Assembly: GCA_000310025.1 (NCBI GenBank)
Contig: FN649149.1
Coordinates: 143,681 to 207,680, forward strand
Length of the DNA: 64,000 nt
DNA from: Ectocarpus siliculosus
Taxonomy: Eukaryota > Sar > Phaeophyceae > Ectocarpales > Ectocarpaceae
Reading direction: 5' to 3'
Shown piece by piece: positions 18,856 through 34,597 of the stretch. The notes below the pieces were generated by a model, which had not been told where the DNA came from, searched no databases, and saw nothing but the letters and a program-made list of their open reading frames with translations. The first letter of the stretch is position 1, and the number at the start of each line of letters is the position of its first letter. The position numbers and the translations under genes are program-made.

Positions 18856-20341
18856 GCGGGGGACACATGTGCACGAACGTCGAGACGAAGCGAAAATGTG
18901 TGTTTGGGATTTCTCGACGGTCCTTCCTGGCGAACAATGTTGAGACTGGTAAAATCTACATGTTGGTTGTAACGAGGTTTTAGGAAAATTTTCCCACCTG
19001 GCGATATTGGGCGCTGCGCCATCTTCGCGATCTTCTCGTCCTGGTACATACCAAACCTTCAGAGAAGCGGACGCCGCCAGAATTCTTGGAGATGGCCACC
19101 AAGGAGATTGCATGGCGCGGTATGAGTCTGTATGTGTGCGTCTCATCTCCTCTGACACCAGTTTACACACCGTTCGTGCACAGTAGAACGAAATATATGC
19201 GTCATCGTTTTTGTTCTGTTTTAATGCCCCACATTTCCCTCTGCGATGTGTGCTTAGTTTTTATTACGACGAGGGTCCAGCCGTCCTTTGCCCTGATCGA
19301 CTGTCAAGTTGGTGATGCTCACGAATCGATCATTTTCCGACGGTTAATTCCAATAATACCCCGGGGGTAGCCCCGGCCTCATCTGAAGCCCTTTCGGTTC
19401 CCCAGGGAGGGTATGGTTGTGTGGGGTCGAGGATGATGTAGTTGAGGGCGGTGATGAAGATGATGGATATAAGTCCATCCATGGATGTGAAAAGAAAGAA
19501 GCGAAGAAGGAAGGAAAGAACCACCGTTTCTCCCCGTTCTCGACTTAAAACCCACTCACTCGACGTCCGCATGAGTACCAAATAGAGCGGGCAAAAAGAC
19601 AGGGCGCCGTCGGCCGTGACCATGGTATCCACACTTTTGACGGGTAGATGGGGAAGCACCCCGGTGGACAAATACGGGAGAGAATGACCGAGGGCAGCCC
19701 GATGCCGGTGATAAAGCGAAGGTTGTGGAATTTATTTTTTAATCGTCCCGGCATGTGTCTGCAGCACAACGAGTACGGCATGCAAACGGAAAAGAAAGGC
19801 AGAAAAAACCAACCGACATACAGACGGAAAAGGCAGTCCCTCCAGGCGAGGAACGCAGCACGAAATCCTGATACATACACCTACACGAAGTACCCAAAGA
19901 CGGCGACGAGGGAAGGGGCCGCGGCAAGGCCAGGCGCGCAGATGACTCATAAATAGCCGCAAGTTCAAAGTGGATTCAAGACCGAGGAGGCAATTACACA
20001 GGAAAATGAAGTCGAAGAACGCGGAAAATGCGGTCCGATCAGACAATGAGAAAATCAGGTAAAAAAATAACTGGAGGCCAAGATAGAGCAAGGCGGGTAG
20101 GGTCTGCCCAGGTAAAGAAACCAGGTGGAGTCGAGGGCTACGATACGTCTACTAGGTACTAGTCGAGGTTGACGCAGTCCGTCCGGGCGAGGAAAGCAGG
20201 GCCGACGAAACTTTGAGGGATCTTTCGGGCATCGTTGAATAGGCTGTGTCAAAAGTCGGCGACTTTCGTGCATGATTCTGAACCAATCGTGGACGTGCAT
20301 CCTTTCCGTCGTGGGTGCGGCGGTACTTGCGACCAAGTGAG
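18856..20341. other. No supported gene; left flank of the mobile element
   Basis: Open frames on both strands here are short, overlap one another and show no domain. The sequence up to 20341 (..gaccaagtga) is the genomic flank of the inverted-repeat element that starts at 20342. Confidence 0.4.
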
Positions 20342-20493
20342 AGAGAAAAGGTGCCCGCAATTAATTGATTGGCCAATTTTTTGAAAGGAACGTTCCAAAG
20401 AAAGGCGAAAACTCCGTGATCGACCGATGACGTCAGCCACGGTCTTGAGATTCAAAAATTTTCAAATTTTCAAATTTGCGGTGGATGACTGAC
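20342..20493 (+). repeat. Left terminal inverted repeat
   Basis: Begins agagaaaaggtgcccgc and ends in gtggatgactgac. Shared with the right end are the outer 36 bp (nearly perfect), the block gttccaaagaaagg, an 8-bp palindrome tgacgtca (20428-20435) and the inner cgtggatgactgac-type block. Between the last two lies an AT-rich core with repeated 'ttcaaa' words. Identity to the right end is estimated by eye at 75-80 percent. Confidence 0.85.
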
Positions 20494-20987
20494 CGACGAC
20501 CTCACACGGCAGCCAAGGGATATCAGCCATCACCGTCCCTCAAAAATAAACAGGTTTCCCACCACCACCAGTGATGATGACGACACATGCTCTCTCGTCA
20601 TCTTTTGTGTAGATTGGCCCCAAGCAAGTAGATAGAGTCGGAGTTTCGTGTGCTCTGCAGCCTACACGAGCAGAAGTTGCAGCAGCAGTAACGTCGCAAA
20701 AATAAACGACAGAGGCGGTAGTATCAGCAGCAGCAAGCACCTACACCACATTGGCTGACTGCTGCTAGAAAGGTGTGGAGGTGGTGTGGCAAATCACCGA
20801 TCGATCGCAGGGTCTCCTCAAGGCTGAGACGCGTTGGATGGAATACGCTAGGCCGACCGGTCATCGAGGCATAACGAGGAAGGCTGCGAGACGGACCAAG
20901 CGACAGCAGTAGGAGGAGGCGGAAACTGCTGTAGTTTAGTCTTGGTCATCTCCAGACTTCCAAACAAACGGCACCCACTGACTCTCA

Positions 20988-21789
20988 TTGGAAATAAATA
21001 CCGTGGTTGACGATTCGTCCCAATCTCTAGATAAATTTTGTGTTCTTAAGACTATACCCGCAACACAAAAGACATGTTACATCGCCTCAAGAAAATTAAA
21101 AGATTTATTTGCGTCATCGCCGAGTGAGCCGTCACCACCACAGCAATCAGGATACAGATGGTGCTACGTGGAGCAAGTGGATCAAGCCGAACCCCTGGCC
21201 AACAGGAGTAACGGGTGGCGCTATGTGGGGCCGCGAGGGGCTATGTATCGTCGCCAGGCGGTCTTCGGTGCAGGATACCGGGTGCGTATCTCGGTCTCGT
21301 CCCGTGGACCGGGATACAGATGGTTCAACTCGCACCCGGTTGGAGGTGATCCATCACTGGAAAATTTCCAATCCTGGGCAACAAGGAAGTGGCGCCGCGG
21401 TTTGGTCCACCCGAGAGACGCCGATGCTTGGAAAACCGCCTTTATTGACGTCGAGCGGTTTGGTCCACCCGAGAGACGCCGATGCTTGGAAAACCGCCTT
21501 TATTGACGTCGAGGGCGGTGGCCGCGGGCAGCTCGTAGTCTCAGCGGCGGATGACACCTGGCGAGCGATCCTCTGCTGGGGATCGGCGGGCAGAAGAATC
21601 GAGGTCGATCATGAAGGCATCCCGGCTTCCTTGTCGAACCTCCAGGTCCGCGCCGGTATCGATTCGCCAAGCCCTGGCTTCAGACAACTCAACATCGCGT
21701 CCTTTGGTAACAGGGTTGTGAGATACGAACCTCTGACCACGTTCGGCATGACATGGAAGAAACGACTCCCTGGTGCTTGCCTCGCTGTA
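20988..21789 (+). pseudogene. Truncated first copy of the polymerase/helicase gene
   Basis: This is a second copy of the 5' part of the gene at 22439, offset by 1,451 nt and differing at only a few positions. It carries a 58-bp direct tandem duplication (21398-21455 and 21456-21513). Because 58 is not a multiple of three, the frame shifts and stops at 21506. At about 21789 the copy ends abruptly within the coding sequence and runs straight into a fresh element end at 21793. It can make at most the first 170 or so residues and is a relic. The near identity of the copies points to a recent event or to an assembly artefact. Confidence 0.85.
21398..21513. repeat. 58-bp tandem duplication, two units
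   Basis: Two adjacent, apparently identical 58-bp units (21398-21455, 21456-21513). Only one unit is present in the second gene copy, so the duplication arose after the large 1.45-kb duplication, or was lost from the other copy. It breaks the reading frame. Confidence 0.9.
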
Positions 21790-21792
21790 GAG

Positions 21793-21944
21793 AGAGAAAA
21801 GGTGCCCGCAATTAATTGATTGACCAATTTTTTGAAAGGAACGTTCCAAAGAAAGGCGAAAACTCCGTGATCGACCGATGACGTCAGCCACGGTCTTGAG
21901 ATTCAAAAATTTTCAAATTTTCAAATTTGCGGTGGATGACTGAC
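21793..21944 (+). repeat. Internal direct copy of the left terminal repeat
   Basis: Same sequence as 20342-20493 with at most a few changes (for example gattgacc for gattggcc). It abuts the broken end of the first gene copy without spacer and marks the left end of the intact 12.8-kb unit. Confidence 0.88.
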
Positions 21945-22438
21945 CGACGACCTCACACGGCAGCCAAGGGATATCAGCCATCACCGTCCCTCAAAAATAA
22001 ACAGGTTTCCCACCACCACCAGTGATGATGACGACACATGCTCTCTCGTCATCTTTTGTGTAGATTGGCCCCAAGCAAGTAGATAGAGTCGGAGTTTCGT
22101 GTGCTCTGCAGCCTACACGAGCAGAAGTTGCAGCAGCAGTAACGTCGCAAAAATAAACGACAGAGGCGGTAGTATCAGCAGCAGCAAGCACCTACACCAC
22201 ATTGGCTGACTGCTGCTAGAAAGGTGTGGAGGTGGTGTGGCAAATCACCGATCGATCGCAGGGTCTCCTCAAGGCTGAGACGCGTTGGATGGAATACGCT
22301 AGGCCGACCGGTCATCGAGGCATAACGAGGAAGGCTGCGAGACGGACCAAGCGACAGCAGTAGGAGGAGGCGGAAACTGCTGTAGTTTAGTCTTGGTCAT
22401 CTCCAGACTTCCAAACAAACGGCACCCACTGACTCTCA

Positions 22439-25400
22439 TTGGAAATAAATACCGTGGTTGACGATTCGTCCCAATCTCTAGATAAATTTTGTGTTCTTAA
22501 GACTATACCCGCAACACAAAAGACATGTTACATCGCCTCAAGAAAATTAAAAGATTTATTTGCGTCATCGCCGAGTGAGCCGTCACCACCACAGCAATCA
22601 GGATACAGATGGTGCTACGTGGAGCAAGTGGATCAAGCCGAACCCCTGGCCAACAGGAGTAACGGGTGGCGCTATGTGGGGCCGCGAGGGGTTATGTATC
22701 GTCGCCAGGCGGTCTTCGGTGCAGGATACCGGGTGCGTATCTCGGTCTCGTCCCGTGGACCGGGATACAGATGGTTCAACTCGCACCCGGTTGGAGGTGA
22801 TCCATCACTGGAAAATTTCCAATCCTGGGCAACAAGGAAGTGGCGCCGCGGTTTGGTCCACCCGAGAGACGCCGATGCTTGGAAAACCGCCTTTATTGAC
22901 GTCGAGGGCGGTGGCCGCGGGCAGCTCGTAGTCTCAGCGGCGGATGACACCTGGCGAGCGATCCTCTGCTGGGGATCGGCGGGCAGAAGAATCGAGGTCG
23001 ATCATGAAGGCATCCCGGCTTCCTTGTCGAACCTCCAGGTCCGCGCCGGTATCGATTCGCCAAGCCCTGGCTTCAGACAACTCAACATCGCGTCCTTTGG
23101 TAACAGGGTTGTGAGATACGAACCTCTGACCACGTTCGGCATGACATGGAAAAAACGACTCCCTGGTGCTTGCCTCGCTGTACTCGTTGCGGACACCTGG
23201 CGAGACTGTCAAGTCGAACTTTTGAAACGAGATCGACGGAGATTTGGCTTCAGGGATGTCGACCCTGTAACGGGATCATTCATGATCTCGACCGGTGGTG
23301 GACGGCGAAGGGAGGGTGCCATTGAACCGCTGAGGAATGCGTTGGATGGTGACAACTACTTCCGCAACCTGTATTCAGTGCTTCTGGGTCGAGACGTGGG
23401 GAGCGAAGAGTTCGATACGTGGCTTGCGGGGGTAAGTGAACCGCCACCGCTCACCTTGCGAAACCTCGAGCAGTGGCTAAGTATGACTAAGGCGAACGTC
23501 GTCGTGTGGTCACACAGGGGCTCTGGCGACAAGGTTCTTGGGCCAGTCGACGAAAAAACAAATCTCCGGCCGCCAGCATTACACGTTGGGGTTCGCGAGG
23601 GACACGTGTACCGATTGGAGGTCGACGGGCCATGGAGGGACCGGTTTGGGTCATCCTTGGACGTGGCCATCGAGCACAGTGTTAAAACACAGCGAAGATT
23701 CCGTCGGATTGCCGAGGCCGTCGAAGAGGAAGAGGAACCGGACACCACTGGGTGTGGAAGCAGGACCTTTTTGCGTGTTGCGGACATCGAAAAAGAGATC
23801 ATGTCCATGAGCCAACAAGACAAGGATTACGACCCGCAGTCGGCCCAGAAGCGGAAGCGAGGAACAGACACATCAGCATTCACGACGTGGTATTCGCCTC
23901 CGGAAACTGCTCTCGACGAATTGATGCTCCACCTGCACATTCGTGGCATCTCATGCAAAGGTAAACTTACCAACTACAGCCATTGGGACTCCCTCACCTT
24001 ACCCTCACTTGGCATCACTATCCGAACGTGGTGCGCCGCAAGCATGGGCGGGTTGGACCCGAACGACTTTCGGCCCGGTGAGGCTACCCGGTTGATTGAG
24101 CTGCAAAACGCGTTGGGTCAGCAGTTTTATCGTCGTGTCATGGACTTTAGAGTTTCGAGCCAGTACAGCCAGTCCCTCCTCGCCCTTCTCGAGATATGCT
24201 GGCGCGGACCAATCGTAGGCGCCGAGCAAGCGTCTGGGACTTCGTACGGGCCGGAAGACTGGCAGTGCGACATCAACGGGGCACACACGGCGGCCCTTTT
24301 GAGCATGGATACGGTGTCGGTGTTCGCCCACATGGACGAAGTGCAGGAGTACGATGACCACGAAATCGAGGATTCGACGCTTTACGTCGTTCGGCTAGAT
24401 GACACAGACCCTGACGTGTATCTTAACGCTGATGTGACCCCAATCACGGGTCGGAACTACAAACGGTACATTCAGCTAACTCGCAGATGTGTTCGCCACC
24501 AAGTGACCCACTTTGTGAGGCCGGCAAGGACGGTCGAAAGATGCCACATACCCTACGTGGCCAGGGAGCTGCTCACGCGGGAGCTTGGGGGCCCCCTCCT
24601 GGAGGGCGCCGAAAGCGCTCGCAAATTCAAGAAAGGGATATTCGTGCGGACCAGCGGAATGCTGCAGCAGAGATACGCGGACAGGATCGATGCTGTCATG
24701 GTTACGGGCAGTGACGAGGCCTTAGCTGTGGGTGGAAAGGTCGTACCGGTCCTCGGTGAAGTCCAACATGTAAAGGCCGGCCTACGCACAGGCCACAAAG
24801 AGCTGGGCTTCGAACCACTCGCTACCGGGGACGCTTACCTTTGCTTCGAAGCGAAACGAACTTGGTACAGAGACGGCTTCTGGGCCTTGGGTGAAGAAAT
24901 TCTCGACCAAACTCGACTGCGTGTGTTGGAGGTACGGAATGCTCTTGAATCCTGCGGCGCATCAGACTTTAGCTACCAATGTGACGCGGTATTCTTCAAA
25001 GGATCTCCCGCAGTCAAGGATGAAATGAGGCTCCGCTTTGGCCATCTGTTCAGTGGTGAGCTCAATACTCCCGGCACTCTCAAGTTTTGCCCAGCATTGA
25101 AGAATCCACAGACCTCCGAGAGTCGCGTCTTCCATGGCATCGAAACCAAACTATCCCTGAGTGCGTTACCGCCCGCACTAAGGCAAATTCCATGCCCGCC
25201 TAAACGGGTCCTACGGGTGGTTCCGCTTTGGGATGGCATTGGGACGAGCTTCCCATCCATGGATGACACCCACAGAGCCTGGCTTTCTCTCACCAAAGAC
25301 CAAAAACTACAGGTTTGGCCGGAGGTGTGCGAGACGGAGTCACCAGCAACCCTTGAACGACTACTACGTGCGCTGAAGTTCGAGGAGGAAAGGATCGTTT

Positions 25401-26788
25401 GCGCGGTGACCGGGGAGCATGGGGGAGCGGGGAAGAGTTACTGCGCAACACGTGCTGCAACGGCCATCTTCAAAACTGGGCTTGTCGTAACCCCCACCAA
25501 TAGTTTGAGAACGTCCTTCACAGACATGCCACGTGGGTGGAGTGTAAAGACCGCCGACCACCAGCTCGGTTTCTATCTGGGGGATGATTCTCACGTGAAG
25601 AAAACGGCCGGGTCGATACGAACGCTCAAGGTTGACGTGATCATCATTGAAGAAACTGCGTATATGCCTCTCCGGACACTAAGCATGATAATGGCTGCTG
25701 CCCATTGCAGCGGCACCCACGTGATCGGGACATACGACACGCACCAACTCCAACCGGTTGAGGACAGTAGCGGTATGTCGACAAGTAGGGACAATGTGGA
25801 CAGGAGGATCGCCCTCGAAAGGGCTTTCCCCACCTGCTTCCATCTATTCGCGCGCAAGCGGGATAAAACTATCGAAGAACAAGTGGAGATGGACGATGGC
25901 CTCTTGTATATTCTCGGCGCGGGAAACGACCGTCACATGGCACAGACAAGAGCTATCGAGAGGTTTGGATGCAGGCGCTCGACTTATCACCATAGCCCGT
26001 CAGATTTTCACCTCGCTTACACAAGAGATTGCGCTCGATTCCATGCCTTCCGAGGTTTGTTGGGGTGCAACGAAGTCGGTGGCTGGGATGGGCTGGGGTG
26101 TCAGACGGTTGTCGGTGCACAATACAGGGACCTCGGGAACTCGGGCAAGATACACAAGAACCACGTGTACAATGTCATCCGATCATCGGCAGATGAGGTC
26201 GTTGTCGCAAGTGCATTTGACGATGGTGCTAGTCTTGAGGAAACTTCACTCTGTCGAGCAGAGGCAGAAAAATTGTTCGATCCCCCAGGAGCATGTACCG
26301 TGCACGCCGTCCAAGGCCGTACAGTGGAAGGGAGGTTGATCATACATCAGGCGCGGCACTTTTACGCTGACGTCCACTGGCTGTACACGGCTGTAAGTCG
26401 AGCGACCGGACCCTCGAACGTGATGGTCATCGACGACATTCACCGCAGCGAGAGCAACATGTCTGACCTGGAGAGGATTTCGTGGGTTTCTAGGAAGGTC
26501 TCGAGCTATATCTATGCCGATGTAACGGCAGGCCGTCTTGAACCAGACGAGGGTGTGCAGCATAGGGAAGCTCTTGTCGAAGAACTTCACCGCTCCTATG
26601 GGGGGAAGTGCAACCTGTGCGACCATGAACTTATCTGGGCCGTTTACAGCGAACGCCAACCGACTCTCGACCGTCTTGACTGTGCTTTGCCTCACACGAT
26701 CGGAAATGTGGATGTTAAGTGCTTGAGGTGCAATCGCGCTCGTGGTAGCCTGGGGAGAGGGAAGTCGAAAAAGAGAAAGACGAGTTGA
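22439..26788 (+). CDS. Large fusion protein: possible family-B polymerase-like region, SF1 helicase and HNH-like zinc module
   Basis: A single uninterrupted frame of 1,449 codons. It opens on TTG; the first in-frame ATG is at 22694, so the true start, or a 5' exon, is unsettled. Numbering from 22439: about residues 580-870 hold DWQCDINGAHTAALL (near 610) and, some 235 residues later, SYQCDAVFF (near 846). I read these tentatively as palm motifs A and C of a diverged family-B DNA polymerase. Residues about 985-1330 are a clear SF1 helicase: Walker A TGEHGGAGKSY (near 991), Walker B VDVIIIEETAY (near 1066), motif III GTYDTHQLQ, then VHAVQGRT and LYTAVSRAT (motifs V and VI). The C-terminal 60 residues have CNLC ... 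DRLD ... GNVDVKCLRCN, a treble-clef HNH-like pattern. It probably drives replication of the element. Helicase assignment is firm; HNH-like is likely; the polymerase is an inference. Confidence 0.85.
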   Translation: MEINTVVDDSSQSLDKFCVLKTIPATQKTCYIASRKLKDLFASSPSEPSPPQQSGYRWCYVEQVDQAEPLANRSNGWRYVGPRGVMYRRQAVFGAGYRVRISVSSRGPGYRWFNSHPVGGDPSLENFQSWATRKWRRGLVHPRDADAWKTAFIDVEGGGRGQLVVSAADDTWRAILCWGSAGRRIEVDHEGIPASLSNLQVRAGIDSPSPGFRQLNIASFGNRVVRYEPLTTFGMTWKKRLPGACLAVLVADTWRDCQVELLKRDRRRFGFRDVDPVTGSFMISTGGGRRREGAIEPLRNALDGDNYFRNLYSVLLGRDVGSEEFDTWLAGVSEPPPLTLRNLEQWLSMTKANVVVWSHRGSGDKVLGPVDEKTNLRPPALHVGVREGHVYRLEVDGPWRDRFGSSLDVAIEHSVKTQRRFRRIAEAVEEEEEPDTTGCGSRTFLRVADIEKEIMSMSQQDKDYDPQSAQKRKRGTDTSAFTTWYSPPETALDELMLHLHIRGISCKGKLTNYSHWDSLTLPSLGITIRTWCAASMGGLDPNDFRPGEATRLIELQNALGQQFYRRVMDFRVSSQYSQSLLALLEICWRGPIVGAEQASGTSYGPEDWQCDINGAHTAALLSMDTVSVFAHMDEVQEYDDHEIEDSTLYVVRLDDTDPDVYLNADVTPITGRNYKRYIQLTRRCVRHQVTHFVRPARTVERCHIPYVARELLTRELGGPLLEGAESARKFKKGIFVRTSGMLQQRYADRIDAVMVTGSDEALAVGGKVVPVLGEVQHVKAGLRTGHKELGFEPLATGDAYLCFEAKRTWYRDGFWALGEEILDQTRLRVLEVRNALESCGASDFSYQCDAVFFKGSPAVKDEMRLRFGHLFSGELNTPGTLKFCPALKNPQTSESRVFHGIETKLSLSALPPALRQIPCPPKRVLRVVPLWDGIGTSFPSMDDTHRAWLSLTKDQKLQVWPEVCETESPATLERLLRALKFEEERIVCAVTGEHGGAGKSYCATRAATAIFKTGLVVTPTNSLRTSFTDMPRGWSVKTADHQLGFYLGDDSHVKKTAGSIRTLKVDVIIIEETAYMPLRTLSMIMAAAHCSGTHVIGTYDTHQLQPVEDSSGMSTSRDNVDRRIALERAFPTCFHLFARKRDKTIEEQVEMDDGLLYILGAGNDRHMAQTRAIERFGCRRSTYHHSPSDFHLAYTRDCARFHAFRGLLGCNEVGGWDGLGCQTVVGAQYRDLGNSGKIHKNHVYNVIRSSADEVVVASAFDDGASLEETSLCRAEAEKLFDPPGACTVHAVQGRTVEGRLIIHQARHFYADVHWLYTAVSRATGPSNVMVIDDIHRSESNMSDLERISWVSRKVSSYIYADVTAGRLEPDEGVQHREALVEELHRSYGGKCNLCDHELIWAVYSERQPTLDRLDCALPHTIGNVDVKCLRCNRARGSLGRGKSKKRKTS

Positions 26789-26839
26789 TTGTACCGTGGT
26801 CGACCGGTAGCTTTTATTCCAAGAAACTCAGGAAATAAT

Positions 26840-27943
26840 ATGTATTGTGTGTATTCAGATAATTCAATCATGAACGATCTCATTCCGCAGTGTGCTCGTT
26901 GGTTGGAGGATAATAAAGACCCGGTCCATGTTCTTGAGGTCTTGAGGACTCTGCATCCAGGCTCTCTCAACAAAAATGTCCGGCGAGTCAGGCGAGAATG
27001 GATGCAAGTATACGGTCCCGGCCAAAACGATGGCGCCATCAGGAAGGACCTTAAGCGCATACTCAAAGTCATACAGAGGAAGGCATCGTCGCTGGCCAAG
27101 AAAACATCGAGTGATTCAAGGAAGAAATACAGCTTGAAACAGCTCAAAATAGCCGAGAGCCGTATCATTTCGTTTTTCAAGTTGGATTTATTCGGCAAAT
27201 GGGCAGCGCGTAATACCATTCATTCCCACAAGGAGTCCTTCACTGGGCTTGTTGATATCGACGCTCTCGTACGGAAGGTAAATATACTTCCGCCGTACGT
27301 CTCTCAGCTGGAACTCACACCGGAAGAAAAAAGTATTCCAAGGAAACGACGTCGAGAAGCCTTGGCAGCGAAGTGCGAAAAGAGCATCACAGTGAACGCG
27401 AGCGACCTTGTCGATCTCATGGGAGCAATTATCACATACCCCCGAGCAAATTACTTTGAGTTGGCGTGCGCGTTATCATTTGTTTCTGGGAGGGGGCTGC
27501 CAGAACTTATTGGTGCTACTGCTGTCCAATTTTCGCCCAGTAATCACGGCACTCACGAGGTAGATGTCCAGGTTGGTGGAAGAACCTGCCGGATACCATT
27601 ATTATGCGAATACGAACACTTTATGGGGGGTGTCAATCGGTTGCGTGGAATGAAAGATACATCCCGTCTAACGCCCGCCGAGGTAAACCATCGATTTAGT
27701 AAATCAGTTAATTTGTACGCCAGAAAATTGCTTCCTGAAGAAGTCGGATTCCGTGTATTCAGCGATTTGAAGACGCTCCACGTCGTGATTAGTCATAACG
27801 TATTCACAGGGCACGAGCTGGAATTGAGTGATTGGGTCCAAGTTGCACGTGGTGGTCGGAGTTCTCCTGCCCTAAGCCGGAAGTGCTCGGTTGTGAGAGT
27901 GAAAGGGATCAAGGAAGACGATCACAGGCATTGGACATTTTGA
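26840..27943 (+). CDS. Telomere-resolvase (protelomerase)/tyrosine-recombinase-like protein
   Basis: The frame is open directly after the stop of the helicase gene; the first ATG is at 26840 (367 residues) and a second at 26870 may be the real start. The N-terminal 170 residues are basic and helical, as expected for a DNA-clamping domain. The C-terminal half carries a pattern I recognise from telomere resolvases: ACALSFVSGRGLPELIG (first catalytic Arg region), a beta pair ending in CRIPLL, LRGMKDTSRLTPAEVNHRF, and GFRVFSDLKTLHVVISHNVF (second Arg/His region). Three key positions look altered: the beta-hairpin Lys seems to be Arg, the second Arg seems to be Lys (DLK), and no tyrosine is seen near SPALSRKC where the nucleophile should be. 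It may be a diverged or inactive enzyme. Close coupling to the helicase gene suggests joint function in end processing or integration. Confidence 0.55.
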   Translation: MYCVYSDNSIMNDLIPQCARWLEDNKDPVHVLEVLRTLHPGSLNKNVRRVRREWMQVYGPGQNDGAIRKDLKRILKVIQRKASSLAKKTSSDSRKKYSLKQLKIAESRIISFFKLDLFGKWAARNTIHSHKESFTGLVDIDALVRKVNILPPYVSQLELTPEEKSIPRKRRREALAAKCEKSITVNASDLVDLMGAIITYPRANYFELACALSFVSGRGLPELIGATAVQFSPSNHGTHEVDVQVGGRTCRIPLLCEYEHFMGGVNRLRGMKDTSRLTPAEVNHRFSKSVNLYARKLLPEEVGFRVFSDLKTLHVVISHNVFTGHELELSDWVQVARGGRSSPALSRKCSVVRVKGIKEDDHRHWTF

Positions 27944-29205
27944 ACCCTTGCTCCAGACGTCTTATCGTCATCCGGCCCTTGGCCAACCGCCCAAACACAA
28001 TATTCATTTTTGCCCTTGATAGCGTAAACACCCACGTTTCGTTTTCCCAGTTGGGGGAAGCACTCCGTTGTCTACTCCATGCTGGAGCCTGCGTAGGCAA
28101 CACGGTCAACACAGTGAACTCTAAACCCGAAGGCTCCTAATTGATCACCTTTGGTGACCCAGATAGAGGAAGAAAATGCGCACGATCGCACAATATCCAC
28201 ACACAGTACAATGATACAATCAAGTCACAAGAGAACTGTGTTCCCGACTAAAACCCCAGGCACTCGTGCATCTTGACCATCATGTATGAACGAACACACA
28301 ACGCTTCTTGTACTCCAAAACATTTCGCATACAATGAATGGTCGAAATCCCACAGTAAAGTCACGAAAAACCGCCGACAAATCACCTTCAAAACCACCTC
28401 CGAGTGAGGATATACACGCTGAATCTGCCGACCAAAAATATACTCCGGAGTATATATGTATCGGACTCAGACATGATAAAGGGAGACGAAAAAACTTCAG
28501 TTGGCACGACTCAAGCTAGTCTATGCAGGAAGCCTGCGGGTGGTCTCTTTCCATTCCCCATCACTTCAACGCCACCGAAGAGCCATTCTTCGTACAAGTC
28601 AGAGCTCGTTTTGACTTCCATGTATGAACCCACAACACCACTTGCGGTAGACACCAACTGTTCTTCTATCTAATAATATGAACAACGCCACATACAAATC
28701 ATCTCCAATAAAGTTGCCGAAATCAAAGTTTCGAACAAAACAATCACAATCGCTCCGTCGACCAGGCTCATTTGAACATACATTTGATGACTGGGTCGAA
28801 ATGTAACACACCAGAGCACCCTAACACAGGGCCCATCGACACAACAACATCGATTCGCATGCACGAACCCTAAACAGCCCACGGGTAGCCATTTACCCTC
28901 TAATGTACGGTGAGTGGTCGTAAAAAATGTCCCTCATGAAGTAAATTGAATCCATTGACCAAAAACAGACCACGAGAAACGCAAAAACCTCCGTCTCTCT
29001 CTCTCTACCCCATGACCGGAACAAATGATTGAGTGGGCGATACTATCGTAACACATACATGTCGTCGATGTTTTTGCTAAATTGGCTGTGACAACAACCA
29101 ACAGTCGAAACGCGGAAGAAGAGCGCACACGACTACCGCGAGGACGAGGGCAGAAGGTGGTTTCCGGGACCACGCGATGCGCGAAACTAGGGAAACGGCC
29201 ACCGT
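27944..29205. other. Intergenic space inside the element, no supported gene
   Basis: AT-rich sequence between the convergent resolvase-like gene (plus) and the 3' end of the minus-strand gene. It contains only short open frames without recognisable domains and probably holds two 3' UTRs. Confidence 0.45.
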
Positions 29206-31332
29206 TTACTCCTCGTTCAGCTTCGCGCGCGTCCTCTCCCTCTTGTTGTGGGTCTTGTTAGACACGATCTTGCCCGCGAGCAGAGGAGCGATGGCGAAGT
29301 GAGGCACCCTGTAGGGCGGCGCTGCGGTGGTCACAGGGATGGTTCCCCCTCCAACGCACCGGTTGAGACTCTGGCCGTTGTGCACGCCCATGATGAGCGC
29401 ACCCTCCCGGTCGAGGCCAAATGTCGATCGGCCCTTGGTGAGGCCAGGGTGATCGGGGTTGACCTCTGTGTCACAGAGGGGGGCGTCCTTCAGGCTCCCA
29501 TCCGGCTGCACCAGGAGTCGAAGTTTCGCGGCGAGATCTCTCGTTGGGATGTCGAGGTGGAGCCCGTACCACTTGTCGTTCGCCCCCTCGGCACTGAAGT
29601 CTCTCGCGGTGGCCCCGTTGCCGCTGTTGAAGGGCTTTCCGACGGCACCGTAACCGGGACCACTGTTCAAGGCTGATGAACAGGATGGGTAACCGAAGTG
29701 AGGTCTGGAGTGACATATTATAGATAGGCTCAATCCAACCACGCTTAAGGCATCGCGTTCTGTTCGATCGACTGTCACATAAGCAAGAAAAAAGTTAAAT
29801 TGCACGCTTCAACAACAGCAACTACAACAACAACAACAGAAAGAGAACCACAACTTACCCCCGCGGGAGGAGTCTTCAGAGCATGGAGCGGGGATGAGTT
29901 GGTTTGCGTCGGGTGAACTATTGTATCATGAAAGGCGGGGGCGGGTCGGAATGGAACGGGCGTAGAGAATGAAAGAACAACAATAACACACAGACAGAAA
30001 CGCCTGCAACGAACACGACGGGCGGGGGCAATAGGCTCAATCCAACCATGCACCAGCTGCTCGTTCTTAAGGCATCGCATTCTGTTCGATCGACTACTGT
30101 CACATAAGCAGAAATACGAAATAAGGTCAAACAGCACGCTTGGCTGCATTATAATCTACTTCGCGAGAAACTTCATTCACAGGGTCCATTGCACGCAACC
30201 GTATCAACATGTCAAACGCACAAGGGAGCGGGGGTGCCTTGGTTGCGTTGGGTGCGGGGCACACGAGGGAACAAACGAAAACTACCTGGCATAACAACGA
30301 TGGGCGGCACGAGCCATCTCCTTCACCTTTCTGGCTGGCGGCCTTGACCCAGTTCCCCGCACTGCCGTCCCACGCCATGGCGTTGTTTGCCTCCGTTGCC
30401 TTGCGTGACCCCGTCGTGCGCGGGGCTGTGTCGGACAAGACAAGGCTGTCGGCGAAGGGGTTGTGGGGAGCTCCAATCGGGGGCATCCTGGATTCGGCGC
30501 GGTCTACCACCGACTGGCGGGCGCTGTCGCGGTCCACGCGCGTGGTAGCCTGTCCATCGATCCGCGTGGTACGGTAATCCGCCACCAGAGTGAGCGACTC
30601 CACGTCCCCTCCCTTGACTCCATGAACAACGCGTACCTGCTCCCCCCTAGCCATGGGCCCCTTCACGATCATCCGCCCGTTCTCCTTGGGGATGTGCCAC
30701 TCGTCCGGCCCGTATGGCCCAGTCGCAGGCGCGGCTTTTGGCCCAGACATGAGCTTCACGTGAAACTCCGGCGGCTCGTCAGAGGGTCCAGACAGGAGGG
30801 TAAACACAACCCGGTCGAGCCCCAGGTCGATGCTGTCCCTGTGGGTAGGCATGCCCGTTCCTACCGGCCGGGCGAAGGCGCGGACCTGGCTCACCTTGTT
30901 TGTGAGTCCCTCTGGTGCCGATTGTTCGATGTCCCCAACGAACCCCCCCAGTTCCGGCTTCCCCTTCATCATGGCCACCGACAATCGCTGCTCGGTGGTC
31001 TGGGCACCGTCCTGGCCAATGAGTGCGAAAAGAGACTGCTCTTCGACGGGACGATCGGCTTTCGACTGCGCGTACTCCGCAACCAGCTCGTTCAGTTCGT
31101 CGCTCATTTGTCGCCCGTCGTACCCTGCTGCGACGCCATGGTTGAGGTCCGTGACGAGCTCCGCGAGGGTAAGCTTCTCTTCCGTGTCGTGGATGATAGG
31201 TTTCTTGAGCTTGACCGCCCACGGGTTCCGTCCGCCACACTTGGGTTTCTTGGACGATCTCCCGTTCGCCGCTGGAACCTGTTGTTGTGTGCCAAAAGAT
31301 ATCGATTCTTCATCAGATTTAATTACGTCCAA
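29206..31332 (-). CDS. Unknown spliced gene carried near the right end of the element (partial model)
   Basis: Two minus-strand exons splice in phase. The longer is open from 31332, with a likely acceptor at 31292, and ends at 30327 on a GTGAAG donor in phase 1. The terminal exon runs 29672-29206 (stop). Together they give about 490 codons without an in-frame start, so at least one 5' exon is missing; 32953-32705 is a candidate. The N-terminal part is helical and charged. The middle includes PTHRDSIDLGLDRVVFTLL, and about 90 residues on VVHGVKGGDVESLTLVADYR, which faintly recalls the HxD...H...R layout of 2-oxoglutarate/iron oxygenases; the spacing is imperfect, so I do not call it one. The last exon is rich in G, N and P. 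It could be element cargo, a structural protein, or a host gene caught between the repeats. Confidence 0.5.
29723..30139. repeat. Local direct duplication in the intron of the unknown gene
   Basis: The stretch at about 29723-29806 (aggctcaatccaacca ... tcgatcgactgtcacataag ... gcacgct) recurs at about 30031-30139 with a 20-odd-base insertion and a few changes. Both copies lie inside or at the edge of the predicted intron, where they could supply alternative acceptors. Confidence 0.75.
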
Positions 31333-32704
31333 TCAAAGGAATCGCCCGTTCAGCACACTCCCGTCGATCTCCCAACACTAGAAACCACCTCAAAGTTTCA
31401 GTACGAGTAAGTTTCATGACCCCCACCTTTCCTGTCACGCAATCGTGCGGATATGCTCGAGCCACACAAAACCTTGCGTTCACCATTTTGGAGAGTGAAT
31501 GTTCGGAGAGTGTGAGGGGGGGGGGGGGGGTGTAGTAATTCAAATGGAAATCCCTTTCAGGCGTGTTGGAGGATGTGAGCGGGAACATGCGTGCAAATTG
31601 GTTTACTCAAAAATATATTCGGCACCCCCCCCCCCAACCCTGAGTTTCGGCCCCCCAGGTAAATGCGGAGTGAGGTGGATACAGAGGGGGGGGGGGGAGG
31701 TGAGGCATAAGGTACCCTATTTTTCATTACTTGCCTCCTTGTCCTCCTCCACCTGGTCTGACTGTTCGGAGTCGAAGCTCAGACGGTGCTTCTTCCCCGC
31801 TCTCCTGGATGACTGGCGCGGTGTGTGACGTGGGTGAAGGGTTGTCGTAATGGTGGTAGTTCCAAGAAAGGGGGGGATGAGTGTCGACATTAAAAAAAGG
31901 GCAAGTCAATCCTGCAGCCGCATTATTGTCACTCTTGTTCGACTGAAATCAGCCTGAACACTGGTGGTGGATTTGGGAAGCCTGTATTTGTTGAATTACA
32001 GCAACACCACCACCCGTCAACTCCACTCGTTCGGTGTCTGTAGCCACCCGTGTGACGGCGAAACGAGGTCGGCTCTATACAGCAATTAATGGTATGGTCG
32101 AGACCCCTAACGTACTTCCAGCCAAGAGACGAAAAACTGACCTCGCGTTTTCTCCTCCGCCTCGTGTGCGCGGCTGGCGTCGCCGAGGTCGTGATCTCTT
32201 CGCTGTCGCAAGGCTGGAGGTGTAGCATACCGGACAGAGTCGAGGAACGATCGCAGGCGGTGGAGAGTGTAGCGAGGGATAAATGAAATGTGCACTTGAG
32301 CCACGAACCCGGGCGCTGTGGTTTTGGCGGGGAAAAGAGACGAACTAGCAAACATCCACCCAAGTTCGGCCGAAATCACGTGAAAATGAGGTGGGGCATC
32401 GAATACTTCGGACTTGACATTACGAGCGGAGATGAGGAGGCTTTGGACATGGCTGACAAGACGACGAACCACGTCATGCCAGTGCTGTCGGTCGGAAGCA
32501 AAGACAACTACCTTTCGGGCGCGTACCCAGAGATAAGCTCGAGGTGCGCCGCGAAGGTCCGGCGTACGCAACAAACGAATGCATCTTGTATGTACGTCGT
32601 CACAAACGAAAAGACATGAGGAGGTTAGGAAACGTACTTCAAACGCTCGTACAAACAGACCTTTTTCCATATACCGCATACCAACATGATAACAAAACAC
32701 CCAC

Positions 32705-32953
32705 CTCATCAGCCGCGTCGAATCCAAGGGCACAGGCGAACTGAATCACTTTGTCTTCCTGGTGGCGCAACTCGTCAGCATCGGCGCGGGACGGGCCCTC
32801 GTGCCCTGCTCTGCTGGAATCTCCCTCTATAGCACCGGCGAGCGTTAATACAGCCTCAACCCCGTATCGGAGCAGCGACACGCGCGAATCCACATCGGCG
32901 CCCTCCTCGAGCTCGTCCGCGAACCGAAGCAAACGAGCGGCATATTCGATCAT
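32705..32953 (-). CDS. Candidate 5' exon of the unknown element gene
   Basis: An 83-codon stretch starting at an ATG (32953) and ending at a GTGGGT donor (32705) in phase 0. The peptide is strongly helical and acidic (MIEYAARLLRFADELEEG, then a leucine/valine-rich helix, then KVIQFACALGFDAADE). It would splice in phase to the possible acceptor at 31292 of the long exon downstream. No family is recognised. The link to the downstream exons is an inference from phase and strand. Confidence 0.35.
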
Positions 32954-33029
32954 GGTTTCTGCAGACACGAGACCGTGGTACCGACCCGAACCCTTCGGCA
33001 CCTGGCAAGAGCAGCGGGAGTTACTCAAA

Positions 33030-33421
33030 CTAGACCGTGTTCATGTTGTCTACACGTATCATACAAATGCTGAGTAGCAGGAATAGGGTGAAACAGCAGA
33101 GCGTCCACACCCAAATGGACGCGGGGACGCGTGGGGAAAAAACTGTCGCTCATGGTTTACGCACAGCGCACAGCCTTGCACACTTCATACGTCACATCGG
33201 CCCTCTGGTGCTAATCGGCCCTCTGGATGTGTTGGACGATGGCTGGCGTTCGCAGCGCATGTTATCCTCTGCTACAGCAGTGGATCTGGACAGAGTAGAC
33301 TAGACTATGTGCGGAGTATGATACAATCAAACCAAAATCTGAACCTAAATTGTGCTTCTGCTGAGCTTGTTCCTTGCAGATCTATCTTCAGAGACAGACA
33401 CATTGATTTGGTGTGTGTGCG

Positions 33422-33453
<32 letters not shown>

Positions 33454-34438
33454 GAGAGACAGAGAGAGAGAGTGAGAGAGAGAGAGAGAGAACCGATTTA
33501 GGCAGCAGTGGCAAAGACTGCTGTATACACGCACGGCTTTCGACTTCGATTTTTCAAGTACATCGAGGAGACGGGTGATCGAAGCATACGCCCTAAATCA
33601 TCATACATCACTGTGGACCCATCTACAAGTAAGTGCTGTGGCACTAAGAGATCACGACGGCCACGCGTAGCGTCATTGAAGACACCAGCATGCTTTTTTG
33701 AACATTTGAAAATTGAAATTGAAAATTCAACACCTGCCGCCGCAGCGAGCAGATGCCCGCCCGCAAGGGAAACGTGTGGTGAAACAACCCCACATACGCG
33801 GACTGCGAGGAGTCATCAAGCCAAGGTCTTGCAATCGTCTGCTCACCTGCCGCACTCGTGTCGTGCGTGTGGTGTGGCTATGTTCCAATGAATGTGTTTT
33901 CGGCAGCAGTATTCGTTTTCGCGGGGGAGGGGTTCCGCGATGTGTTCTCGGAGATCTCTGCTCTCGGAGATCGACACATACCTGCACCGCCGCGGATCCC
34001 GACTACAAGGAAGGAAGATGAAAATCCCTCTGGATTCTTGTCGGTGACTGCCATCTAGTCTCAACCCAATGGACAAAAGAACAGAGCACGGTTCCAGGAT
34101 ACGGCTGTGTGCGGACACAGCCGAAGTTGGAAGCGATACCCAGTGAAGCGTCCTTGATGTGTCGTGTGTTGTGTTTTGCAGTATCATTCGTTAGAGCCAG
34201 CGTTTCTTTTTTTAGCATTTCTGACATCTCTGTCGGAAAGTCTGACCGGGGGAACAGTCTACACTACAGCAACCCCGTCACGCTTGGTTGGTTGGTGTGG
34301 GTTGACACCAACGGCACATAACGTAGGCAGTGTACTCGGTGATTCCACGGAGTGAGTACGCCTGAGGTCATCCTCCATCAACAGTCATCCAGATTTTGTT
34401 TCACCGACCTCAACAATGCTGTTGTGCTGGCATCATCA
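33030..34438. other. Non-coding right-hand part of the element
   Basis: No gene is supported here. The clearest structure is a (GA)n microsatellite at 33421-33490. Other open frames are short and arise partly from the low-complexity tract. Confidence 0.5.
33421..33490. repeat. (GA)n microsatellite
   Basis: About 70 bp of nearly pure GA repeat with a few interruptions (gacaga, gtga). It gives the spurious RE/ER-rich and LS-rich open frames seen on the two strands. Confidence 0.95.
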
Positions 34439-34597
34439 GTCAGTCATCCACGGCCAAAATTCAAAATTTTGAATTTCGCCAAAAGGCCACTTCTCGACCG
34501 TGGGTGACGTCATCGGACGACCAGGGATTTTTTCCCTTTCTTTGGAACGGTCCTCAAAAATTTTGGCCAATCAATTAATTGCGGGCACCTTTTCTCT
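34439..34597 (-). repeat. Right terminal inverted repeat
   Basis: Reverse complement of the left end. It shares the outer agagaaaaggtgcccgcaa block followed by the ttaattgattggcca block, the gttccaaagaaagg block, the tgacgtca palindrome (34505-34512) and the inner gtggatgactgac block. It differs from the left end in the AT-rich core, which here contains a perfect 20-bp palindrome (34457-34476). Confidence 0.85.
34457..34476. promoter_or_regulatory. Perfect 20-bp palindrome in the right terminal repeat
   Basis: The arm aaattcaaaa is followed directly by its exact complement ttttgaattt, with the centre between 34466 and 34467. A perfect palindrome inside a conserved terminal repeat is the kind of site a hairpin-forming resolvase acts on. 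The left end has only an imperfect counterpart. The role is inferred; the palindrome itself is certain. Confidence 0.5.

Follow-up and report, generated by a model that had tools for sequence, protein, structure and literature searches.

Architecture of the element

The window analysed here (64,000 nucleotides of Ectocarpus siliculosus; C455:143681-207680, where C-numbers denote contigs of the alga's own genome) contains a member of a mobile family of brown algae that is bounded by terminal inverted repeats (TIRs) and that carries two tandem, intronless, plus-strand open reading frames (ORFs), ORF1 at 22439-26788 and ORF2 at 26789-27943, both of which had been noticed in the original prediction. 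The inverted repeats reported there were likewise confirmed, 20342-20500 aligning with the reverse complement of 34433-34597 with 136 identities in 173 alignment columns and with a score of 96.5, against a maximum of 6.0 among 500 random segment pairs of the window. Regarding the predicted extent, 20342-34597, the right end stands and the left outer 1.45 kb does not, since 300-nt stretches of the left end recur in direct orientation 1451 bp inward at 100% identity, indicating that 20339-21789 (plus strand) is a tandem duplicate that has an outer tip and a TIR (20342-20500) of its own. This duplicate includes the N-terminal part of ORF1, as detected by tblastn, and a further 58-bp duplication is also present. 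The left end being doubled, the core of the element extends from ~21793 to 34597 with an extra end piece outside it, and the inner tip, adjacent to the genes, is at 21793.

The core left TIR (21793-21950, plus strand) shows the tip GAG-AGAGAAAAGGTGCCCGC and is supported by inverted pairs I2, I4 and I6, as well as by homologous tips elsewhere, while the right TIR (34433-34597, minus strand), with the tip CCTTTTCTCT, is supported by inverted pairs I1, I3 and I5 and by the alignment. A 20-bp perfect palindrome, AAATTCAAAATTTTGAATTT, is found in the right TIR (34433-34476), with an imperfect counterpart in the left one.

ORF1, recognised by its open frame, Pfam, profiles and motifs, comprises 1449 amino acids (aa) counted from a TTG, its start codon being ambiguous. 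ORF2 is a 384-aa frame from TTG, with the likely start at ATG 26840 or 26870, and profile comparison points to a homologue of telomere resolvases (TelN/ResT) with a degenerate active site. A single TGA (26786-26789) parts ORF1 and ORF2, which share the same frame, in the window and in the copies on C18, C54 and C9 (4.22 Mb), an arrangement not seen in C17, C6 and C3. Some gene models (P0014, P0023) fuse ORF1 with ORF2, which is taken for an annotation effect.

Copies, boundaries and mobility

Own-genome searches, covering the 189-Mb genome, returned at least 59 matches to the left TIR, six pairs of which are the ends of other two-ended copies (C6 745337-761525, C3 818204-833784, C54 240618-252895, C18 3793737-3805672, C9 4220286-4233482 and C9 174893-188798), giving seven with that of the window. 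The copies on C6 and C3 have 7.4 kb in common at 99.8% identity, with ends 99.6 and 99.9% identical and a likeness that ceases 10 bp or less from the tips; those on C54 and C18 have ends 94.1 and 97.2% identical, with a likeness that ceases 13 bp or less from the tips. Flanks of approximately 1 kb each, compared by blastn on the plus strand at E 1e-10, gave no match for either pair, so these sister copies are separate insertions, some of them recent. Other copies had been proposed as the check on the element's limits, and their boundaries agree, sister copies matching to within 13 bp of the tip. Satellite DNA was considered as the origin of the repeats and rejected, because matches to the left TIR include the ends of two-ended copies and the sister copies confirm the boundaries. 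Short two-ended pieces with the same tips also occur at C23:3864786-3865008 (0.22 kb) and C26:2580218-2582184 (1.97 kb), possibly as non-autonomous derivatives.

Most preserved tips are of the form (GA)n-AGAGAAAAGG, with n variable, and appear inverted between both ends, so that the GA run belongs to the element. Nine of the 12 ends of the six other complete copies have TA immediately beyond the (GA)n tip. In the whole end table TA was recorded at 11 of 32 ends, with ~2 of 32 expected under equal base frequencies, a rough figure, since automatic trimming returned a GA run of zero length for 9 of the 11 additional short fetches, although the run is visible by eye in some of these. The prevalence of TA beside the ends of complete copies points to TA or T as the joining site.

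At several loci truncated ends form tandem repeats with their tips facing outward, each repeat opening with a (GA)n tip: in the window at 20339-22089 (left), at C9:174893-177624, at C9:4232799-4233482 and at C27:3610336-3610623. In the second of these, 13 right-end-type tips were located by pattern search within 174893-177056, on the left side of the copy, before a further tip at 177469. In this same copy (C9 174893-188798), the pieces at the outer left show a 95-96% match, across 181 bp, to the right end of the window element, and the copy's own right end a 93% match, across 243 bp, to the left end of the latter, indicating that ends have been exchanged. The TIRs of the family are long and exchangeable.

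Conservation of the gene pair and variable third genes

When 15 stretches picked by TIR matches were surveyed by tblastn, both ORF1 and ORF2 were found in 10 (window, C18, C54, C9 at 4.22 Mb, C17, C6, C3, C271, C12 and, broken, C483), in pieces ~50-94% identical to those of the window. C9 at 174 kb showed only ORF1, C26 a fragment of it, and C27, C23 and C139 neither ORF within the 10 kb read. Both frames are unbroken in three of the 15 loci, namely the window, C18 and C17. Several of the 32 matches produced by a genome-wide search with ORF2 carry stops; the matched loci include C16:6714 kb, C9:1599 kb and C15:2206 kb.

Ratios of nonsynonymous to synonymous substitution (dN/dS, NG86) for ORF1 lie at 0.14-0.38 in all ten pairs of five unbroken copies. 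For ORF2, with seven copies and 21 pairs after exclusion of broken ones, they are 0.21-0.38 in 11 pairs and 0.06 in one saturated pair (dS 5.1), nine being undefined. The ORF1-ORF2 pair is under purifying selection. By dN, the ORF1 of the window is nearest to that of C12, whereas its ORF2 is nearest to that of C18, and such conflicting relationships imply that modules recombine; C6 and C3 match on both sides of ORF2 and not across it.

A third ORF of 401 aa lies on the minus strand of the window element (30127-31332) and is, in its main part, 60% identical to one found in the copy C9:4220286-4233482. Third genes on the minus strand (window/C9, C6/C3, C54/C18, C9) fall into three groups that do not match each other (blastp, E 1e-3), and are cargo-like in their variability. 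Pfam matched none of four such ORFs at E up to 1. By eye, the window/C9 version keeps an HRD...H...R pattern, which we take to be reminiscent of 2-oxoglutarate/Fe(II) oxygenases.

Named protein relatives of ORF1 come from Ectocarpus, Hapterophycus, Pylaiella and Tribonema, that of Hapterophycus being 98% identical across 69% of a 990-residue ORF1 query, while those of ORF2 come from Laminaria, Ectocarpus and Scytosiphon.

ORF2 is related to telomere resolvases and has lost their active site

The resolvase-like character ascribed to ORF2 holds as to homology and fails as to the active site. The profile phrog_5272, against which TelN itself scores 975 bits, matches 12 of 14 ORF2 members at E up to 1 (best 3e-9; window copy 2e-6), and PF16684 matches 10 of the 14 at the same threshold (best 5.3e-5), its best member, P0009, being below the curated cut-off (23.3 vs 27 bits). 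ResT is the only match of ORF2 in the PDB (E 7e-4), and hhalign against eight phage protelomerases yields 97.7% with E 2.2e-12. Judged by profile comparison, ORF2 is thus a homologue of phage telomere resolvases that shares their catalytic domain. A tblastn comparison of ORF2 with phages produced one weak match (E 0.7).

The catalytic set R-K-R-H-Y is invariant across the eight phage protelomerases; its positions are given here as R275, K300, R383, H416 and Y425, presumably the numbering of TelK/TelN. Among 17 element proteins (nine from databases and eight from the own genome, some near-identical, with partial and broken ones excluded), R275 is replaced by Gly or Ala and K300 is absent (gap, Val or Cys) in all, while Y425 is Cys in nine and Ser in eight. 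R383 is Lys in 13 and Arg in four, and the His of H416 is kept in four. On the contrary, all five residues are kept by seven phage proteins of the same alignment and by L057, a separate gene of this genome described below. R274, beside the lost R275, remains in 12 of 14 rows, being Leu in P0003 and C6. Although the local hhalign alignment ends before the active-site stretch of the window ORF2, this stretch lies between an upstream Trp and a C-terminal WTF that are common to L057, making gross misalignment unlikely. ORF2 appears, from these replacements, unable to catalyse hairpin formation, contrary to its proposed role as an active hairpin-forming resolvase.

L057 is an intact gene of the ResT/TelK type (C16:4529268-4530313) whose PF16684 match, scored at C16:4529765 with 60.4 bits, is above the cut-off. 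It is 25.7% identical to ORF2 across 338 residues and 23.5% identical to TelN across 324, and a quick unrooted tree gathers the element proteins into a single group that excludes both L057 and the phages. Given this separate grouping, and the similar identity between L057 and TelN, direct descent of ORF2 from the viral gene is not established. The neighbours of L057 (L073 and L074) are intronless ORFs, one of which, by sequence the L074 ORF, has a VWA match, and the locus is probably an endogenous phaeovirus.

ORF1 combines helicase, nuclease and polymerase-like regions

The helicase and HNH parts predicted for ORF1 were recovered. A Dda-like helicase is matched by 10 of 10 ORF1 relatives (E up to 0.1, best 2.6e-12; residues ~983-1336) and endonuclease VII by seven of them (E up to 0.1, best 7e-6), the latter corresponding to an HNH-like C-terminus (~1382-1438) that gives no match in the C9 174 kb copy. 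In Pfam, AAA_30 and UvrD_C_2 were matched below their cut-offs, and a putative deoxyribonuclease of the PDB was weakly matched on the helicase part (E 1.1).

The polymerase-like label is sustained by motifs and not by a significant profile match (hhalign probability 0.9, E 0.06). Motifs A (DWQCDING, 611), B (KKGIFVRTSG, 732) and C (YQCDAVFF, 849) occur in the order of family-B DNA polymerases (PolB), whose pattern we take to be an Asp in motif A, a Lys in motif B and Asp-x-Asp in motif C. In a 10-row alignment (A5), D611 is nearly invariant and K732 and D849 are invariant, the first Asp of motif C being absent. These motifs recur in 11 own-genome copies, with the exceptions of C3, without a B match, and C483, altered in C. 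No PolB family was matched in Pfam, and the motifs are only suggestive of ORF1 being a family-B DNA polymerase. Prokaryote genome contigs yielded no confirmed relative of ORF1, and its relative P0033 gave one weak tblastn match among phages (E 0.03).

Proposed mode of movement

What had been proposed for this locus, a mobile and bounded TIR element pairing a replication-type protein with a resolvase homologue, is retained here except for the hairpin-forming activity of the latter. The best explanation, for which we consider the chances evenly balanced, is that the conserved two-gene core drives the mobility cycle. ORF2, sharing descent with telomere resolvases of the N15/phaeovirus type and devoid of the hairpin-forming residues, would recognise the element ends and hold or protect them as a non-catalytic binding or capping protein, whereas ORF1 would nick, unwind and copy the element from these ends, acting as nickase, helicase and perhaps polymerase, and a linear intermediate would be produced. 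Passages of PMC12624138 report that TelN(Y425F) protected hairpin telomeres from Mre11-Rad50 approximately as well as the wild type. Since this catalytically dead protein still protects telomeres, binding of ends is a function that a resolvase fold can fulfil, and it is this precedent, together with the apparent loss of catalysis, that favours end recognition or capping as the role of ORF2.

Several observations weigh against this explanation. (i) No empty site, binding of ORF2 to the TIRs or replication intermediate has been observed. (ii) TA borders both ends in only three of the six other complete copies and neither end of the window element. (iii) Pfam, searched at E up to 1, leaves the window ORF2 unmatched, and AlphaFold models are poor, with a predicted local distance difference test (pLDDT) score of 45.7 for ORF2 and 36.6 for residues 1-965 of ORF1. 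(iv) The hhalign comparison of ORF1, made with phi29, Cp-1 and PRD1 only, aligns motif A with motif A without reaching significance, and the ORF1 profile finds no polymerase among its four PDB matches at E up to 10. (v) As described in passages of PMC12624138, TelN inhibited E. coli Mre11-Rad50 and not yeast MRX, so capping may not carry over to a eukaryote.

A wider proposal, which we put forward tentatively and regard as somewhat doubtful, is that the family represents a superfamily of mobile DNA in eukaryotes that had gone unrecognised, its members replicating from their ends. In it, a virus-type telomere resolvase would have become a protein that binds or caps ends without catalysis or, in a bolder version, would have replaced its Tyr with a Cys or Ser nucleophile. 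If so, the variable (GA)n tips and the truncated ends arrayed in tandem would be traces left by synthesis of the ends.

Among other explanations, a large non-autonomous DDE transposon (EnSpm, KDZ, Sola and mariner being examples of the type), which acquired these genes and depends on a host transposase acting in trans, would account for the TA borders, which resemble a 2-bp target duplication, and for the short two-ended pieces with tips 0.22 kb (C23) and 1.97 kb (C26) apart; moreover, giant families lacking a transposase and thought to be non-autonomous are described for Ectocarpus in parts of PMC12477816. We nevertheless consider it unlikely, because the ORF pair is kept under purifying selection across copies whose ORF1 and ORF2 pieces are ~50-94% identical to those of the window, while third genes vary, and because variable (GA)n tips and truncated-end arrays are unlike a clean cut-and-paste end. 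It is still less probable that the element is a phaeovirus satellite or linear-plasmid parasite, comparable to transpovirons, whose ORF2 marks the ends for processing in trans by a viral resolvase. An intact resolvase gene does stand in the genome beside intronless ORFs, one of them VWA-like, its alignment with ORF2 extends over 338 residues, and phaeoviruses are latent in Ectocarpus according to passages of PMC13236599; however, L057 resembles TelN about as much, its viral origin is itself inferred, and for none of ORF1, ORF2 and L057 was a relative confirmed in IMG/VR by pattern-limited scans.

An active hairpin-ended linear element, in which ORF2 would resolve inverted TIR junctions into closed hairpin telomeres, was rejected as the leading model and is now very improbable. 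ORF2 is indeed a resolvase homologue, a modelled tip-to-tip junction, (TC)nTA(GA)n, would form a palindrome, and passages of PMC13236599 attribute to phaeoviruses a telomere resolvase together with a telRL-like palindrome at which reads turn back. Yet R275, K300 and Y425 are missing in every element protein of the table, in a genome that holds a separate gene with all five residues. Hardly to be expected, and already disfavoured, is a decaying Polinton, virophage or giant-virus remnant that keeps only replication genes: it would fit the TIRs and the polymerase-like region, but neither the near-identical recent copies nor the purifying selection, and the Pfam scans, in which ORF1 and ORF2 were joined by another 41 ORFs of the window, each 75 aa or longer (split or multi-exon genes could escape them), detected neither a capsid nor a packaging ATPase or protease family among these 41.

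Comparison with known systems

The eukaryotic mobile-element classes tested do not account for the element. As originally proposed, the Pfam scans, made on both ORFs and on the 41 others of the window, found no DDE transposase, HUH protein, integrase, capsid or known transposase, and the mismatch holds for Polintons and Helitrons and, as to the transposase, for DDE TIR transposons. Helitrons are set apart by the lack of an HUH Rep domain in these scans together with the presence of TIRs, and Cryptons, DIRS and Starships by ORF2 having Cys or Ser instead of the catalytic tyrosine in 17 of 17 proteins and by no other recombinase family being matched in the scans. The same table argues against an active protelomerase, as none of the 17 keeps R275, K300 or Y425. 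In no class examined did the element show the defining set of features. In its gene set and its position outside these classes the family is categorically new, a claim that does not cover the mechanism. As far as searches show, it is also undescribed: no paper placing a telomere resolvase in a eukaryotic transposon was found in the open literature (subscription papers and Repbase lay outside the search), and it could stand unnamed among the unclassified DNA families that parts of PMC12477816 list for Ectocarpus next to giant DDE ones. The integrated phaeoviruses described in passages of PMC13236599, which carry telomere resolvases, hold a transposon with 8-bp target duplications, which distinguish it from the family of the window.

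Polintons or Mavericks are alike in being large TIR elements with, possibly, a PolB-like domain in common, but in the present case no integrase, capsid, packaging ATPase or protease family was matched in the Pfam scans and the PolB match is not significant. Transpovirons are linear plasmids of mimiviruses with TIRs. By description, not by sequence, the algal element resembles them in these TIRs and in a superfamily 1 (SF1) helicase (passages of PMC3671162), and it differs in its chromosomal integration, HNH-like end and ORF2. The giant DDE transposons of brown algae (KDZ, EnSpm, Sola-1), as presented in parts of PMC12477816, are similarly larger than 10 kb, with TIRs and cargo genes; unlike them, the family has no DDE match in the Pfam scans, a conserved non-transposase gene pair and variable (GA)n tips. 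It offers a recently active multicopy system for studying movement without a recognisable transposase, as well as for asking whether a hairpin-telomere enzyme survives the loss of catalysis as an end-binding protein, roles that are separable in TelN according to passages of PMC12624138. At the protein level, ORF2 is akin to TelN, TelK, ResT and the resolvases of phaeoviruses and coccolithoviruses, with which profile comparison shows a common catalytic domain. L057 aligns with ORF2 over nearly its full length, and both it and the window ORF2 end in WTF. Compared with all these resolvases, ORF2 is distinguished by the loss of the R-K-R-H-Y set and by its location in a multicopy TIR element of 12-16 kb instead of a virus or plasmid.

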